Shown here: positions 14,437 through 48,289 of the stretch, piece by piece
How positions within the stretch are numbered: position 1 is the first letter of the stretch
Layout of the letters: every line of letters begins with the position of its first letter
Assembly: GCA_947625755.1 (NCBI GenBank)
Contig: CANQPJ010000014.1
Coordinates: 1 to 50,823, forward strand
Source: an uncultured Lachnospiraceae bacterium
Lineage (GTDB): Bacteria > Bacillota > Clostridia > Lachnospirales > Lachnospiraceae
DNA length: 50,823 bases
Reading direction: 5' to 3'
Position numbers and translations under genes: made by a program
Notes under the pieces: model-generated
The model's input: only the letters and a program-made list of their open reading frames with translations
Databases searched by the model: none
What the model was told of the DNA's origin: nothing

Positions 14437-14702
14437 CTTCCGTGCAGCCGGGGAAGCAGCGGAGCCCTGTACCTGCAATCCGCTACAGCAGGGGTGATGA
14501 TTTGCCTCGGGTTTATTTTGTAGGGCTGCCCTTTATAAGTGGTGTTGACGTTTGGGTCTCATGCAACAGAATCCTGTGAACCGTGTCAGGTCAGGAATGA
14601 AGCAGCACTAAGCAGATCATTTTGGGTGACATGAGGGCGCCTAAGCCGAGCTAACTGTAAAGGTAACGCTTATGAAATACTCACAAAGCAAATCGCACGG
14701 AG
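14437..14702 (+). ncRNA. ffs: Signal recognition particle RNA, large (Bacillus/Clostridium) type
   Basis: The 5' part (CCCTGTACCTGCAATCCGCT near 14465) is the Alu domain with helices 2-4, and the S domain core GTCAGGTCAGGAATGAAGCA near 14587 is the helix 8 binding site for Ffh. The end pairs with the start (TTCCGTGC near 14438 with GCACGG at 14695-14700), giving about 266 nt. That is the size of the Bacillus scRNA rather than the short E. coli 4.5S RNA. It forms the particle that targets membrane and exported proteins to SecYEG. Confidence 0.95.
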
Positions 14703-40951: not shown

Positions 40952-41060
40952 AAAAATTCCGGCTGCTCAAATTAAAATAAATCAATAAAACTGATTAATT
41001 TTGTCACTACACAAAAAGAAAAACATATGATAATATATGGCTAACCTAAAAAATACAAAA

Positions 41061-41321
41061 GTGTTGAAGAGGAGTAGTAGTTAAGGCGCAGATTTCAGAG
41101 AACCGTTGGGTGGTGTGAAACGGCAGATGCAAATTAGTGAACTCGCCTCGGAGCTTCCGGCTGAAATGTCAGAACAGTAGGTCAGGACGGATTCCACCGT
41201 TACAGGGAATGGATGTCATAGGCATCTATAGAGAGCATGTATTACATGAAACAGAGTGGTACCGCGCAAGTAAAGCTTACGTCTCTGTGCTTCCGGCTGG
41301 GAGCACAGAGATATTTTTTTG
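41061..41321 (+). promoter_or_regulatory. T-box leader, leucine type, with terminator
   Basis: This RNA leader senses uncharged tRNA. Stem I features include GGAGTAG (41071), the AGAGA-containing distal part near 41096-41132, and a specifier region GTGAACTCGCC with Leu codon CTC at 41142-41144. A second CTC lies at 41147-41149. The T-box sequence AGAGTGGTACCGCG at 41253-41266 pairs with the tRNA CCA end. A terminator follows: CTCTGTGCT (41283) with GAGCACAGAG (41301-41310) and seven T. Leucine specificity agrees with the downstream isopropylmalate synthase. A promoter is likely near TTGTCA at 41001 and TATGAT at 41026, but the spacing (19 bp) is poor. Confidence 0.93.
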
Positions 41322-41349: not shown

Positions 41350-43335
41350 ATGAACTACAAGAAGTATAAGAGACAATATTTTATGCCCCCTGCATATACA
41401 CAGGACTGGGTAAAGAAAGAGTACATCGATAAAGCGCCTATTTGGTGCAGTGTAGACCTTAGGGACGGTAATCAGGCGTTAATTGAGCCGATGAGTCTTG
41501 ATGAAAAACTGGAGTTTTTCCAGATGCTTGTAGACATAGGATTTAAAGAAATAGAAGTAGGTTTTCCGGCAGCTTCAGAGACGGAATACAATTTTATGCG
41601 TACTTTAATTGAGAGAAATATGATACCGGATGACGTTACGGTACAGGTTTTAACTCAGGCGAGAGAGCATATTATTAAAAAAACTTTTGAGGCAGTGAAA
41701 GGGGCAAAACATGCAGTTGTCCATCTCTACAATTCCACATCTGTAGCCCAGCGTGAGCAGGTGTTTAAAAAGAATAAGGATGAGATTAAAAAGATTGCGG
41801 TAGATGGCGCCCGGTTGTTAATGGAACTGGCGGAACAGGTAGAGGGAAATTTCTCTTTTGAGTATAGCCCGGAAAGTTTCCACGGTACGGAAATGGAATA
41901 TGCATTAGAGGTGTGCAATGCGGTACTGGATGTGTGGAAACCAAAAAAGGATAATAAAGTTATTATCAATATTCCTGCAACGGTAGAGAACGCAATGCCT
42001 CATGTGTTTGCCACACAGGTGGAATATATGCATAAGAATTTAAAATATCGTGATGCGGTGACAATTTCCGTACATCCACACAATGACAGAGGATGCGGTG
42101 TGGCGACTGCGGAATTGAGTATTCTTGCGGGGGCAGACAGAATCGAAGGAACCTTGTTTGGCAATGGTGAGCGAACCGGCAACGTTGATATTGTAACGCT
42201 GGCAATGAATATGTTTTCTCATGGCATAGATCCAAAACTGGATTTCAGCAATATGCCGGAAATATGCAAAGTGTATGAGAGAGTTACAAGAATGCAGGTG
42301 AGTCCTCGTCAGCCATACGCCGGAGAACTGGTTTTTACTGCTTTTTCAGGCTCTCATCAGGATGCCATTGCAAAAGGAATGGCATGCAGGGAAGAGAGCA
42401 GGGATAAAACATGGACGGTTCCATATCTTCCAATTGACCCGGTTGATGTCGGACGGACTTATGATTCAGATGTTATCCGTATTAACAGTCAGTCCGGTAA
42501 AGGCGGCGTAAGTTATATTTTAAAGCAGAATTTTGGACTTTCTCTTCCGGAAAAAATGAGAGAAGAAGTAGGGTACTCTGTAAAAAATGTTTCGGATAGG
42601 GAACATAAAGAATTATCGCCGGAATGGGTATATCAGATATTTGAAGATAAATACATTAATAATTACAGTGTGTTCAATGTTCCGGAAGCACATTTCCAGC
42701 AGAAGAATGGAATTATAGCTGATGTGACCATTGCGCAAAATGATATTGTCCGTATTGTTAAAAGCACCGGAAATGGAAGACTTGATGCGGTGAGCAATGC
42801 ATTTAAGCAGTATTTTAATATCAGCTATGAACTGTCAGTATATGAGGAACATTCCCTGTCCCGCGGTTCTTCCTCCAAGGCAGTATCTTATGTGGGAATC
42901 AGCTGTAACGGTACGATGTACTGGGGTGTAGGATTGGATGCAGATATTATCAAATCTTCCATACACGCATTGACAGTAGCAGTGAACCAACTCGTAAAAG
43001 AGACCGGGGAAAAACATTGTAAAGATGAGAGACTAACAGACATTATTAATTATATTAACATAAATTATCTTACGGTTACACTAGACGAGTTAGCGGAACA
43101 ATTTCATTTGTCAAAGCCATATTTGTCCAAATATATTAAGGATAAATCAGGGAAAACTTTTGGCGAACTGGTAAAGAATGTCCGTATGAAAAAGGCAAGG
43201 ACGCTTTTAAAGAGCAGCAGCATGACGGTTGAAGCAATTTCTGATGCAGTGGGCTATCAGAATGTAGAGCATTTTACCAGATTGTTTAAACAGAAATACA
43301 AAATGACACCGGTACAGTTTAGAAATAATAATTAA
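41350..43335 (+). CDS. leuA: 2-isopropylmalate synthase fused to an AraC-type DNA-binding domain
   Basis: Predicted to condense acetyl-CoA and 2-oxoisovalerate in the first step of leucine synthesis. 661 residues, where enzymes of this type have about 560. The catalytic barrel carries DLRDGNQ (36-42), metal ligands H242 and H244 in HPHND, and GERTGN. Residues about 425-550 are the LeuA dimer domain that binds leucine for feedback. Residues about 557-661 are a complete AraC/XylS domain with two helix-turn-helix motifs (TLDELAEQFHLSKPYLSKYI and TVEAISDAVGYQNVEHFTRL), ending KMTPVQFRN. The frame is unbroken with no internal stop. AAAGGAG precedes the ATG, and a leucine T-box lies upstream. No leuB, leuC or leuD is near. 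The chain may be both enzyme and leucine-responsive regulator (inference). Confidence 0.95.
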   Translation: MNYKKYKRQYFMPPAYTQDWVKKEYIDKAPIWCSVDLRDGNQALIEPMSLDEKLEFFQMLVDIGFKEIEVGFPAASETEYNFMRTLIERNMIPDDVTVQVLTQAREHIIKKTFEAVKGAKHAVVHLYNSTSVAQREQVFKKNKDEIKKIAVDGARLLMELAEQVEGNFSFEYSPESFHGTEMEYALEVCNAVLDVWKPKKDNKVIINIPATVENAMPHVFATQVEYMHKNLKYRDAVTISVHPHNDRGCGVATAELSILAGADRIEGTLFGNGERTGNVDIVTLAMNMFSHGIDPKLDFSNMPEICKVYERVTRMQVSPRQPYAGELVFTAFSGSHQDAIAKGMACREESRDKTWTVPYLPIDPVDVGRTYDSDVIRINSQSGKGGVSYILKQNFGLSLPEKMREEVGYSVKNVSDREHKELSPEWVYQIFEDKYINNYSVFNVPEAHFQQKNGIIADVTIAQNDIVRIVKSTGNGRLDAVSNAFKQYFNISYELSVYEEHSLSRGSSSKAVSYVGISCNGTMYWGVGLDADIIKSSIHALTVAVNQLVKETGEKHCKDERLTDIINYININYLTVTLDELAEQFHLSKPYLSKYIKDKSGKTFGELVKNVRMKKARTLLKSSSMTVEAISDAVGYQNVEHFTRLFKQKYKMTPVQFRNNN

Positions 43336-44416: not shown

Positions 44417-44568
44417 CTCTTATTCAGAGTGGTGGAGGTACAAGGACCGATGAAGCCACGGCAACCCCGACAAGTGTCAGGAAGGTGCCCGCCTGAGCGA
44501 GTGAATCGATCAATAAGAGGACTTAATACATTGAAACTAAGTCCACATATTGATGTGGACTTTTTTTT
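44417..44568 (+). promoter_or_regulatory. SAM-I (S-box) riboswitch with terminator
   Basis: P1 pairs CTCTTATT (44417-44424) with AATAAGAG (44512-44519). The core is canonical: AGAGTGGTGGAGGTACAAGG, CCGATGAAGCCACGGCAACC and AAGGTGC. Past it GGACTTA and TAAGTCC form an antiterminator-like helix (44519-44544), which competes with the terminator stem 44539-44548 / 44553-44562 followed by eight T. High S-adenosylmethionine should stop transcription of metK. Confidence 0.96.
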
Positions 44569-44632: not shown

Positions 44633-45823
44633 ATGGAAAAGAGATTGTTTACTTCAGAATCAGTGACCGAGGGACATCCGGACAAAATGTGCGACCAGAT
44701 TTCTGATGCTATTTTGGATGAACTGATGCGGCAGGATCCGAATAGCCGTGTGGCATGTGAGACAGCTATCACGACCGGGCTGGTTCTGGTTATGGGTGAA
44801 ATCAGTACGGAAGGATATGTAGATATTCAGAAAATTGTGCGTGATACAATCCGTGAAATCGGATATGACAGAGCAAAGTATGGATTTGACTGTGATACCT
44901 GTGGTGTAATTACTGCGCTGGACGAGCAATCAGAAGATATTGCACTCGGTGTAGATAAGGCGATGGAAGCAAAAGAGCATCAAATGGATGAAGATGAGAT
45001 TGATGAGATTGGCGCCGGAGACCAGGGCATGATGTTTGGTTATGCCACGGATGAGACGGAGGAACTGATGCCTTATCCGATTGCGCTTGCGCATAAATTG
45101 GCAAAAAAACTGTCGGCGGTTCGGAAAAACGGAACACTGCCGTATCTGCGTCCTGACGGAAAAAGTCAGGTAACTGTGGAGTATGATGAGGAGGGCAGAC
45201 CTTCCCGAATTGATGCGGTTGTAATTTCCACCCAACATAATCCGGAGGTAACACAGGAACAAATCCATGAGGATATTCGCAGAGAAGTCATTGATGCAGT
45301 GATTCCGCAGACCATGACAGATGAAAATACAAAATATTTTATTAATCCGACCGGACGTTTTGTCATTGGCGGTCCTCAAGGGGATTCAGGACTTACCGGA
45401 CGAAAGATTATTGTAGATACTTACGGTGGATATGCAAGACATGGCGGCGGTGCATTTTCCGGAAAGGATTGTACCAAGGTAGACCGTTCCGCAGCTTATG
45501 CAGCCCGGTATGTGGCAAAAAATATTGTTGCGGCAGGTCTTGCAAAAAAATGCGAAATTCAATTATCCTATGCCATTGGAGTGGCGCATCCGACCTCCAT
45601 TATGGCAGATACTTTCGGCACCGGTAAAGTAAGTGATGAAAAACTGGTAGATATTATCAGAAAGCGTTTTGACCTCCGCCCGGCAGGTATTATTAAGATG
45701 CTTGACCTTCGCAGACCGATTTACAAACAGACTGCAGCATATGGACATTTTGGAAGAACTGACGTTGACCTGCCATGGGAGAAGACAGATAAAGCAGACG
45801 AGCTGAAGAAATATTTGGCATAA
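44633..45823 (+). CDS. metK: S-adenosylmethionine synthetase
   Basis: Makes S-adenosylmethionine from methionine and ATP. 396 residues, normal length. Family marks are [20 protein letters not shown] near the start, the [12 protein letters not shown] loop, and [18 protein letters not shown]. The later GGGAFSGKD motif is intact. GAGAGGAG precedes the ATG. It lies behind the SAM-I riboswitch, so the product feeds back on its own expression. Its stop is 14 bases from the stop of the convergent pyridoxal kinase gene, with no terminator between. Confidence 0.97.
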
Positions 45824-45837
45824 ATACTTTGCAGGTT

Positions 45838-46680
45838 TTATACCGTCTTCCCGACAAGTTTCAAAAGATACGGTATTTCTGCTTCAAAGTTTACTGCATA
45901 GTTAATGTGGTTCGGGTCTTCATAAGTATTTTTAATACAGGCGCAGGTATAATCGGCAGCGATTTTTAAGGCGTCAAATATTGAAAAATCATTCATCAGT
46001 GCACCGGTGAGTGCACTGGCGAAAACATCTCCGGTTCCATGAGATTTCATAGGAACCTTTTCCGTATAATACTCAAAGAAATTTTTTGTTTTGGTGTTGT
46101 ATCCCATAAAACCAAAATGATTATCTTCGAATGTCACACCTGTGATGACAACTGTTTCTGCGCCCAAAGAAGCTAAATCCAGCAGGAGTTTTTTAATTTC
46201 TTCCGGAGAGGCTTCTTCTCCTATATATTCTTTTCCCAGCATGAAACATGCTTCTGAAATATTGGGAAGAATAATATCTGCATTGGAACAAAGTTCTGCC
46301 ATTTCTAGGGCAAAGTCAGAAGTAAATCCTGTATAAAGTTTACCATTATCTGCCATGGCAGGATCTACAATAATGTAGTTATTTTCATTCTTAAATGTGT
46401 GGAAATAATCAGTTACAATGCGAATCTGCTCTTTGGAACCAAGATAACCTGTATAAATTGCATCAAAGGTAAACCCTTCATTTACCCAGTGATTTTTAAT
46501 CCCATTCATATCCTCTGTCAAATCTCTAAACGTGAAATTATTGAACATGGTGTGTGTGGACAGCACAGCTGTTGGAACAATGGATGTCTCCACGCCCATA
46601 GCAGAAATAATGGGCAATGCCACAGTCAGAGAGCATTTACCAATGCATGATAAGTCCTGAATACTTAAAACCCGTTTCAT
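45838..46680 (-). CDS. Pyridoxal/pyridoxamine kinase
   Basis: A vitamin B6 salvage kinase, PdxK/PdxY type of the ribokinase family, 280 residues. It opens KRVLSIQDLSCIGKCSLTVA, typical for the pyridoxal kinase group, and the catalytic anion hole HGTGDVFASALTG has D218 as base. It also has a YTGYLGS and VDPAMADNG motif of PLP kinases. CGGAGGT precedes the ATG. The PdxR/MocR-type regulator gene is divergent 163 bases away, which strongly supports a role in B6 salvage. Confidence 0.92.
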   Translation of the reverse strand: MKRVLSIQDLSCIGKCSLTVALPIISAMGVETSIVPTAVLSTHTMFNNFTFRDLTEDMNGIKNHWVNEGFTFDAIYTGYLGSKEQIRIVTDYFHTFKNENNYIIVDPAMADNGKLYTGFTSDFALEMAELCSNADIILPNISEACFMLGKEYIGEEASPEEIKKLLLDLASLGAETVVITGVTFEDNHFGFMGYNTKTKNFFEYYTEKVPMKSHGTGDVFASALTGALMNDFSIFDALKIAADYTCACIKNTYEDPNHINYAVNFEAEIPYLLKLVGKTV

Positions 46681-46843: not shown

Positions 46844-48289
46844 ATGCTGACATATGATTTTGAAAATAAGGGAAAACAGTCCCTATATGAGTATTTATAT
46901 AACTGCATCAAAAAAGATATATTATCAGGAAAAATCAAAGCAGGTGAAAAGCTGCCTTCCAAACGTGAGATGGCAAGAAATCATAACATTAGTGTCATTA
47001 CGGTTGAAAATGCGTATGCGCAGCTTATTGTGGAAGGATATATTTTCACACAGGAAAAGAAAGGGTATTTTGCGAGTGAAATCAGTGAGCAATATATGAA
47101 TGCAGATTTATATGATAAGATGCATACAAAAAACCATTGCATAAAACCGGAACATTCATTGCATGATAAGATTGGCAGGAATCAGGGAATAAATAAGAAT
47201 AGAGACTGGTTGGTGGATTTTAATTCCAATCATATAATGTATGACAGTTTTCCTTTTGCTACATGGTCCAGAATTATGCGGAGGACATTGCTGGATAAAG
47301 AAAATTCGTTTTTGGTCAGCCCGGCGCCAAATGGTGTTTGGGAATTAAGAGAAGCAATCGCAAACCATCTGTCCCAGTTTAGGGGAATGAGTATTAATGT
47401 AAATAATATTATTGTAGGTGCCGGAACAGAATATCTCTACAGTATTATTGTGCAGCTTCTCGGAAACGATAGCGTTATTGCAGTGGAGGATCCCGGTTAT
47501 CAGAAAATCAGTAAAGTATATGAGAGCAATGGGATAAAATGTCTGCATCTTCCGATTGATCAGTCGGGAATCCGGACAGAAGCCCTGGTAGGGAAGAAGA
47601 TAGACGCAGTGCACATTTCTCCATCGCATCATTTTCCAACAGGACGTGTGATGCCTGTCTCCCGGAGACAGCATTTATTAAACTGGGCAAGAGAAAATCA
47701 CGGATTTATTATAGAAGATGATTATGATAGTGAGTTTCGGTTTTCCGGACGCCCGATACCGGCTATGGCAGGAATGGACAGCAATCATGTGATTTACATG
47801 AATACATTTTCAAAAACGCTGGCGCCTTCTATCCGTATTGCATATATGGTGCTTCCGGATGAATTGATGGAGAAATATAGAAAAAGGTTAAATTTTTATT
47901 CCGGCACAGTTTCCAGTTTTGAGCAATACACATTGGCAAATTTTATTTTGGAAGGTTATTATGAGAGACACATTAACCGAATGAGAAATTACTATCGGGA
48001 TTACCGGAATACAATTATCAGTGCCATTAAGCAGTCTCCCATAGATTCAAAGGTGACCATTGAAGAAGACAATGCCGGACTTCATTTTATTTTGGGAATT
48101 AATAAAGAAATAGATGACGAAAAGTTTAAGCAGATTTTAAGAAATCACAACATAAATATTTCCAGTGTGTCGGATTATTGTTATAATGTATTGGAAGAAT
48201 TTAATCATAAATTCATTATTAATTATTCGGCGGTAACAAAGGATAAGCTGACAAAAGCATTGGAAATTATGGATAATGCATTAAAATAA
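46844..48289 (+). CDS. MocR/PdxR-family transcriptional regulator
   Basis: A GntR winged-helix domain joined to an aminotransferase-like PLP-binding domain, 481 residues. Residues about 10-80 form the DNA-binding part (ILSGKIKAGEKLPSKREMAR, ISVITVENAYAQLIVEGYI). The PLP lysine is K324 in NTFSKTLAPSIRIAYMVLP, with IIEDDYDSEFRF upstream. Members of the PdxR group sense PLP and regulate B6 synthesis or salvage genes. The divergent pyridoxal kinase gene is the obvious target. The ATG follows GGGGAA. The opening LTYDFENKGKQSLYEYLYNCIKKDI is typical. Confidence 0.92.
   Translation: MLTYDFENKGKQSLYEYLYNCIKKDILSGKIKAGEKLPSKREMARNHNISVITVENAYAQLIVEGYIFTQEKKGYFASEISEQYMNADLYDKMHTKNHCIKPEHSLHDKIGRNQGINKNRDWLVDFNSNHIMYDSFPFATWSRIMRRTLLDKENSFLVSPAPNGVWELREAIANHLSQFRGMSINVNNIIVGAGTEYLYSIIVQLLGNDSVIAVEDPGYQKISKVYESNGIKCLHLPIDQSGIRTEALVGKKIDAVHISPSHHFPTGRVMPVSRRQHLLNWARENHGFIIEDDYDSEFRFSGRPIPAMAGMDSNHVIYMNTFSKTLAPSIRIAYMVLPDELMEKYRKRLNFYSGTVSSFEQYTLANFILEGYYERHINRMRNYYRDYRNTIISAIKQSPIDSKVTIEEDNAGLHFILGINKEIDDEKFKQILRNHNINISSVSDYCYNVLEEFNHKFIINYSAVTKDKLTKALEIMDNALK

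Follow-up and report, generated by a model that had tools for sequence, protein, structure and literature searches.

A leucine-synthesis enzyme joined to an AraC-type DNA-binding domain, a predicted transcription factor of its own gene in Lachnospiraceae

Introduction

Regulators of the AraC/XylS family share a part of about 100 residues with a double helix-turn-helix, and this part is usually joined to a sugar-binding or response-regulator domain, and in Ada to alkyl-transfer domains. Ada is an AraC-type domain joined to an enzyme, and it controls its own operon. The protein considered here has in common with the family both this DNA-binding part and a predicted tandem site abutting the -35 position, but the usual partners differ: its partner is a biosynthetic allosteric enzyme, the synthase that opens the leucine pathway. 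Leucine genes have been linked to the state of the pathway in other ways. In yeast, Leu3, a separate transcription factor for leucine genes, senses 2-isopropylmalate; control is likewise transcriptional and pathway-driven, whereas in the present protein the synthase itself is the predicted factor. The T-box leader of leuA provides leucine-related control of the same gene, but as an RNA sensor of uncharged tRNA.

For the enzyme, the closest solved relative is LeuA of Mycobacterium tuberculosis (1sr9 and the leucine-bound 3fig), which has the same catalytic, linker and regulatory domains. In the excerpts of PMC2704214 drawn on here, leucine binds the regulatory domain, the signal passes through the linker to the active site, and the 644-residue chain ends at the regulatory domain, where our protein adds a DNA-binding domain. 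Trigger enzymes that combine enzyme activity and DNA binding are represented by PutA, BirA and NadR (PMC8249747 and PMC6978683, in excerpt). Like them, the present protein puts a metabolic enzyme and a DNA-binding domain in one chain; unlike it, they use another enzyme and another DNA-binding fold, and PutA and BirA are repressors where LeuA-AraC is a predicted activator. The enzyme-plus-DNA-binding kind is known, and no apparent description of a LeuA-AraC protein, or of any leucine synthase of such a kind, was found in the open-licence literature searched, judged from listings.

The stretch analysed, called the window below, comprises 50,823 nucleotides of an uncultured Lachnospiraceae bacterium (assembly GCA_947625755.1, contig CANQPJ010000014.1). 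Genomes are labelled G and loci L.

Results

The gene that carries the fusion starts with ATG and runs for 661 codons with no internal stop. Its features and those of its upstream region, all on the + strand, are as follows, with sources.

40972..41008, +, 37-bp element, predicted operator of the AraC domain (comparison of upstream regions; letters checked)
41028..41036, +, extended -10 (TG-a-taatat), 19 nt past the element, without a -35 hexamer (promoter comparison)
41055..41289, +, T-box leader RF00230, putative leucine specifier codon CUC (covariance model)
41281..41312, +, terminator-like hairpin at the T-box end
41350..43335, +, leuA-AraC fusion gene, 661 aa (ORF, Pfam, NCBIfam; frame intact and conserved among relatives)
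41437..42264, +, catalytic TIM-barrel domain, HMGL-like, residues 30-305 (Pfam)
42325..42525, +, IPMS_D2 post-catalytic domain, residues 326-392 (Pfam)
42613..42993, +, LeuA_dimer leucine-binding regulatory domain, residues 422-548 (Pfam; solved-structure matches 1sr9, 3fig)
42994..43029, +, variable spacer, residues 549-560, about 12 residues (identity and pN/pS)
43030..43326, +, complete AraC-type DNA-binding domain with both helix-turn-helix motifs, residues 561-659 (Pfam, model, pN/pS)

By NCBIfam NF002991 (817.7 bits against a curated cut-off of 455), residues 3-547 are a complete type-2 2-isopropylmalate synthase of predicted activity, and the DLRDGNQ, HPHND and GERTGN motifs are all present in the translation. 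The regulatory domain scores 73.1 bits with PF08502 (cut-off 24.9), and the window gene is the sole locus with such a domain in its own genome, which is 99.5% complete. The C-terminal part is recognised, with all matches above cut-off, by HTH_18 (PF12833, residues 581-659, E 7e-21) and HTH_AraC (PF00165, residues 620-659). The structure model places seven helices across residues 560-660 (block pLDDT 79-90), and the modelled C-terminal domain matches the AraC-type domains 6swi, 3lsg and 3mkl at 1.5-1.9 A. The whole-protein model has a mean pLDDT of 72 and a pTM of 0.54, with a barrel that is partly poor, perhaps from an alignment that held fused relatives only, and its C-terminal domain alone was used. 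M. tuberculosis LeuA (1sr9, 3fig) is the best solved match both by sequence, with residues 1-548 as query, and by model. Enzyme and DNA-binding domain lie in a single chain, as in the trigger enzymes.

The sequence-only reading had described this fusion and had named a sequencing error joining two genes as one way in which it could fail. The fusion is real: the frame is single and open, both parts exceed their Pfam cut-offs, and the arrangement recurs in relatives. Among 60 relatives searched, stop-free fusions over the full length were found in 21 of the 22 other genomes of the window's genus (the 22nd, G001, gave a fragment match only) and in four further genera (G023, G027, G029, G031). Mapping of the domain pair in other genomes, which the same reading had proposed, gave matches that span both domains, regulatory and DNA-binding, in 90 of 397 genomes from an even sample of the family (rows counted by hand), in 50 of 392 from the order, every one within the same family, and in 4 of 398 from the phylum, one of them outside the family. 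Among named genomes, all of the best 80 of 589 confirmed relatives carry full-length fusions of 660-669 aa; Coprococcus comes, Butyrivibrio species and Mediterraneibacter species are among the matches listed. A joining error is refuted by these open full-length fusions in the genus (21/22), the four genera, the 80 named loci and the family (90/397).

Within the genus, the catalytic and dimer domains have pooled pN/pS values (10 pairs) of 0.035 and 0.070, the spacer 0.165 and the helix-turn-helix part 0.053. Identity to the window over spacer residues 549-560 ranges from 8 to 75% among fused relatives. By these ratios the AraC part is under strong purifying selection.

Some loci depart from the common form. 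In two split fusions, L354 (G124) and L299 (G107), the LeuA and AraC frames differ, and in G124 eight consecutive A immediately precede the break; such splits may stem from slippage, a mutation or an assembly error. The match outside the family, L365 (G1009), is a fused leuA with an element (45.3) and a T-box core string, and may reflect horizontal transfer or a mis-binned contig.

Comparison of the regions upstream of fused leuA genes yields the block TTAAAATAAATCAATAAAAnTGATTAAATTTrTCACT. Over 128 non-redundant sites, conservation is mostly confined to the 37 bp of the block, plus two weaker A immediately 5' of it, and the order is constant: element, poorly conserved gap, extended -10 (TnTGnTAnnAT). 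The 3' end of the element is where a -35 hexamer would be expected to start, and no -35 consensus is visible in the 128 sites. Of 60 cases, 48 have the sequence TGnTAnnWT beginning 19 nt past the element, 4 have it at 17, 18, 20 or 26, and 8 lack it; in the control it occurs anywhere in 92 of 1200 shuffled tails. The best direct-repeat offset in the element is 22 bp (similarity 0.49), a half-site layout that is uncertain since inverted-repeat similarity (0.56 and 0.63) also exists. AraC-type class II activators use sites of such length, with two tandem halves abutting the -35 position. Judged by its position and the missing -35 box, the element has the layout of a class II AraC-type activator site, and the missing -35 together with an extended -10 at fixed spacing suggests a promoter that needs an activator. 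This predicted activator sign is read from promoter geometry alone.

In one subclade of the genus (L015-L021) the repeats read GTCA..TGAC instead of ATCA..TGAT, recognition-helix residues are altered as well, and there is no T-box core string. Co-variation of helix and element was considered as a further line of argument and set aside, because the subclade amounts to a single event and because G262, which lacks those helix residues, has a similar element as well.

How closely the element goes with the fusion was assessed with a weight matrix built from 80 of 106 upstream regions (the minimum being 23 of 31 matches, where none of 525 shuffles exceeded 22). The test set comprised 76 newly fetched fused loci, and in one of them, G209, the contig stops within the AraC part. 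Scores exceed the null maximum of 7.1 at 68 of the 76 and exceed 15 at 60; among 43 loci listed as unfused, the corresponding numbers are 2 and 0. One of these two high-scoring loci, G124, is itself a split fusion, with the AraC part in another frame directly downstream, and the other known split, G107, also carries the element (37.3). Combined with further rows, the element is found at 81 of 89 fused or split leuA genes versus 1 of 45 unfused ones, where the fused rate is optimistic because some genomes in the test also served as matrix sources or are near to them, a bias that does not affect the unfused rate. The lone unfused locus above threshold, L313 (G140), has a minus-strand hit of 7.4 and bears a T-box.

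Shared ancestry was addressed with a careful tree of 133 LeuA proteins (all rows except the long branch G405; bootstrap unsettled), in which gain is not distinguishable from loss because the tree has no root. The fusion label requires 10 changes, and starred branches force 6 of these. In the 6 independent pairs on starred branches, the element follows the fusion in a mean of 5.8 and the opposite is never seen (median p 0.031); at a threshold of 15 the figure is 4.6 of 6 (median p 0.0625). A quick tree had offered 4 independent pairs only (p 0.125), and a careful 80-row tree, its rows picked from 134 after the quick tree, had given 6 pairs and is superseded by the 133-row figure. An example of such a contrast is unfused G158, with a T-box and no element, beside fused G355, with an element of 48.0 and a T-box.

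The 8 of 89 fused or split loci below threshold are of several kinds. In four (G181, G248, G295, G306) a weaker resemblance to the element can be seen by eye close to the promoter; G405 sits on an extremely long branch; and G286 fits the rule, because its recognition helices are degraded. G279, whose recognition helices are intact, does not fit, G337 is unexplained, and two named loci (L073, L077) likewise do not fit, having intact recognition helices and no element found. The sequence-only reading had proposed that the enzyme could act as a transcription factor. That proposal is now well supported by comparison, through a conserved element at the gene's own promoter that accompanies the fusion and is almost never seen without it.

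The T-box of the window scores 122.2 bits (Rfam gathering score 93), and the leucine codon CUC at the specifier position is a tentative reading from the alignment. The same reading had presented the T-box as a second leucine sensor on the gene, which holds for the window and is not the rule. For the Rfam scans, 60 of the 77 fused loci fetched and 40 of the 43 in the unfused list were taken, the latter with split G124 among them, which has no T-box. At gathering score a T-box was found at 8 of the 60 fused loci versus 31 of the 40 listed as unfused, so most fused lineages examined are without the RNA control of their unfused relatives. The two devices can coexist, since 13 of 22 members of the window's genus show the T-box core string (a string count, as distinct from an Rfam score) and the window's own T-box is confirmed by Rfam. 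Two unfused leuA loci have a Clostridiales-1 RNA between T-box and gene (L329, 1811-1974; L317, 1905-2063).

In the window's genome the pathway is split, with leuA-AraC here, leuC-leuD-thrC on contig C1 and leuB-ilvD-ilvB on contig C2 (NCBIfam), and none of the genome's 8 T-box matches lies at either of the latter units. Threonine synthase (thrC) follows leuC-leuD in this genome (L164, 1230-4529) and, by eye, in G015, G020 and G027 (L174, L175, L183), a pairing of leucine with threonine genes. In the best 80 of 589 named loci, 33 neighbour clusters recur at least four times, and by eye none is a leu or ilv gene; an operon link was accordingly rejected.

Further targets were sought with a 26-base core pattern, allowing at most 2 mismatches, in 49 genomes (35 fused, 14 unfused). 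The pattern lies upstream of fused leuA in 34 of the 35 fused genomes (G031 has none at this stringency), and every match with 0 or 1 mismatch is upstream of leuA. The fused genomes hold 7 further matches, each with 2 mismatches, one upstream of leuB (G386) and one a second match near leuA (G362); the 14 unfused genomes hold three 2-mismatch matches, none near leuA. A reversed control pattern gives 7 matches in the 49 genomes, so the extra matches are at about background, and the same scan rules out the element as a common genomic motif.

At leuB, weaker sites are seen within the window's genus. The gene was not located in 3 of 17 loci; in 6 of the 11 members with a recognisable promoter, a left half-element lies 58-59 bp before the -10 (59 at leuA), a match that in each of the 6 none of 300 null sequences equals, and the full matrix exceeds the null in G015 only (13.3). 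For other fused genomes, 30 leuB genes were taken and 29 scanned (G342 was not located); the full element is present in one, G386, with G308 and G114 about at the null limit, and leuB is rejected as a general target outside the genus apart from G386. The weight matrix finds no full element at leuC-leuD in any of 20 genomes. A left half in phase, sought in the 13 with a recognisable promoter, is clear in G020 alone (0/300 null) and weak in G000 (5/300) and G008 (9/300), and leuC was dropped as a target. The pattern, leuB and leuC scans together point to leuA itself as the general predicted target, with leuB-ilvD-ilvB a probable lineage-specific addition in part of the genus. A motif shared by the leu and ilv genes, which the sequence-only reading had suggested looking for, is thus found at leuA and, in part of the genus, at leuB-ilvD-ilvB, and in its full form not at leuC-leuD.

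The leucine-binding regulatory domain directly precedes the DNA-binding part, with the spacer of about 12 residues between them. In M. tuberculosis LeuA, residues tied to leucine feedback include G531, G533, L535, Y554, A567 and Y410 (PMC2704214, in excerpt). These align with G474, G476, L478, Y498, A511 and Y359 of our protein (pairs counted by hand), and none of the six varies across 41 fused proteins. Leucine binding is not certain, because the leucine-site residues A536, A558 and A565 are replaced by D479, S502 and S509 (hand-counted pairs). A leucine response of LeuA-AraC is plausible.

Elsewhere in the window, a SAM riboswitch (44417-44519) lies upstream of 44633-45823, by eye S-adenosylmethionine synthetase (metK), and an ordinary bacterial large SRP RNA is at 14440-14700. 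A divergent pair, also by eye, consists of a pyridoxal kinase (45838-46680, - strand) and a MocR-type regulator with GntR and aminotransferase folds (46844-48289, + strand), so that by eye another enzyme-derived regulator lies near leuA-AraC.

Discussion

We consider it likely that LeuA-AraC, besides catalysing the first step of leucine synthesis, is a transcription factor that activates its own promoter unless leucine fills the regulatory domain. DNA binding, ligand response and the sign of activation are predictions; domains, selection, element, co-occurrence and promoter geometry come from comparison. In the proposed mechanism, the LeuA dimer would set its two AraC domains on the two halves of the element, spaced by 22 bp. 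With leucine absent, the complex would recruit RNA polymerase and leuA would be transcribed. With leucine on the adjacent regulatory domain, the enzyme would be inhibited and the AraC domains released or misplaced, turning the gene down, and through this joint effect one leucine-binding event would govern both activity and synthesis. In most fused lineages examined, LeuA-AraC control would stand in place of the T-box, while many members of the window's genus would have both; in part of that genus, leuB-ilvD-ilvB would be a second target. An additional unlinked regulator of leuA may also act.

The main rival reading is that the fused protein is a leucine-dependent repressor, whose leucine-bound form on the same element blocks RNA polymerase. 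That the element borders the promoter would suit such a role, and the trigger enzymes PutA and BirA are repressors (excerpts of PMC8249747 and PMC6978683). However, the site lies upstream of the -10 and does not cover it, and the lack of a -35 hexamer with an extended -10 at fixed spacing suggests dependence on an activator, so that we regard repression as unlikely, if worth keeping in mind.

Improbable, in our judgement, is a separate transcription factor that binds the element while the AraC part of LeuA is passive or otherwise employed. Co-occurrence cannot identify the binding protein, and the three exceptional loci with intact recognition helices (G279, L073, L077) could be read in this way. 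But a separate factor sits poorly with the near absence of the element at unfused leuA, nested unfused lineages included, with the strong element matches that sit at leuA and with strong selection on the AraC domain itself.

We give still less credence to an AraC domain that acts mainly in trans on other genes, with autoregulation minor. The half-element at leuB in 6 of 11 genus members and the full one in G386 speak for some such action, but 28 of 29 leuB regions in other fused genomes are without the full element, and the closest pattern matches all lie upstream of leuA, although sites too weak for the pattern would escape. That the fusion is an artefact or a functionless decaying tail, as the two parts in different frames in G107 and G124 and the degraded recognition helices of G286 might hint, is next to impossible given a frame kept open in 90 of 397 genomes and a pN/pS of 0.053, and is ruled out for the window's genus.

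Returning to the activator, we lean towards a general picture in which a single leucine event stops both catalysis and the enzyme's own AraC-activated promoter, standing in for the T-box across much of Lachnospiraceae, with fusion and operator repeatedly gained or lost together. The predicted operator makes the LeuA-AraC system directly testable. If the picture is true, it would supply a defined operator and promoter for testing and possibly a compact leucine biosensor; it would also open to study a natural exchange of RNA and protein control at one gene, and feedback inhibition and gene control would share one chain and a single ligand site, and would do so in a common gut family.
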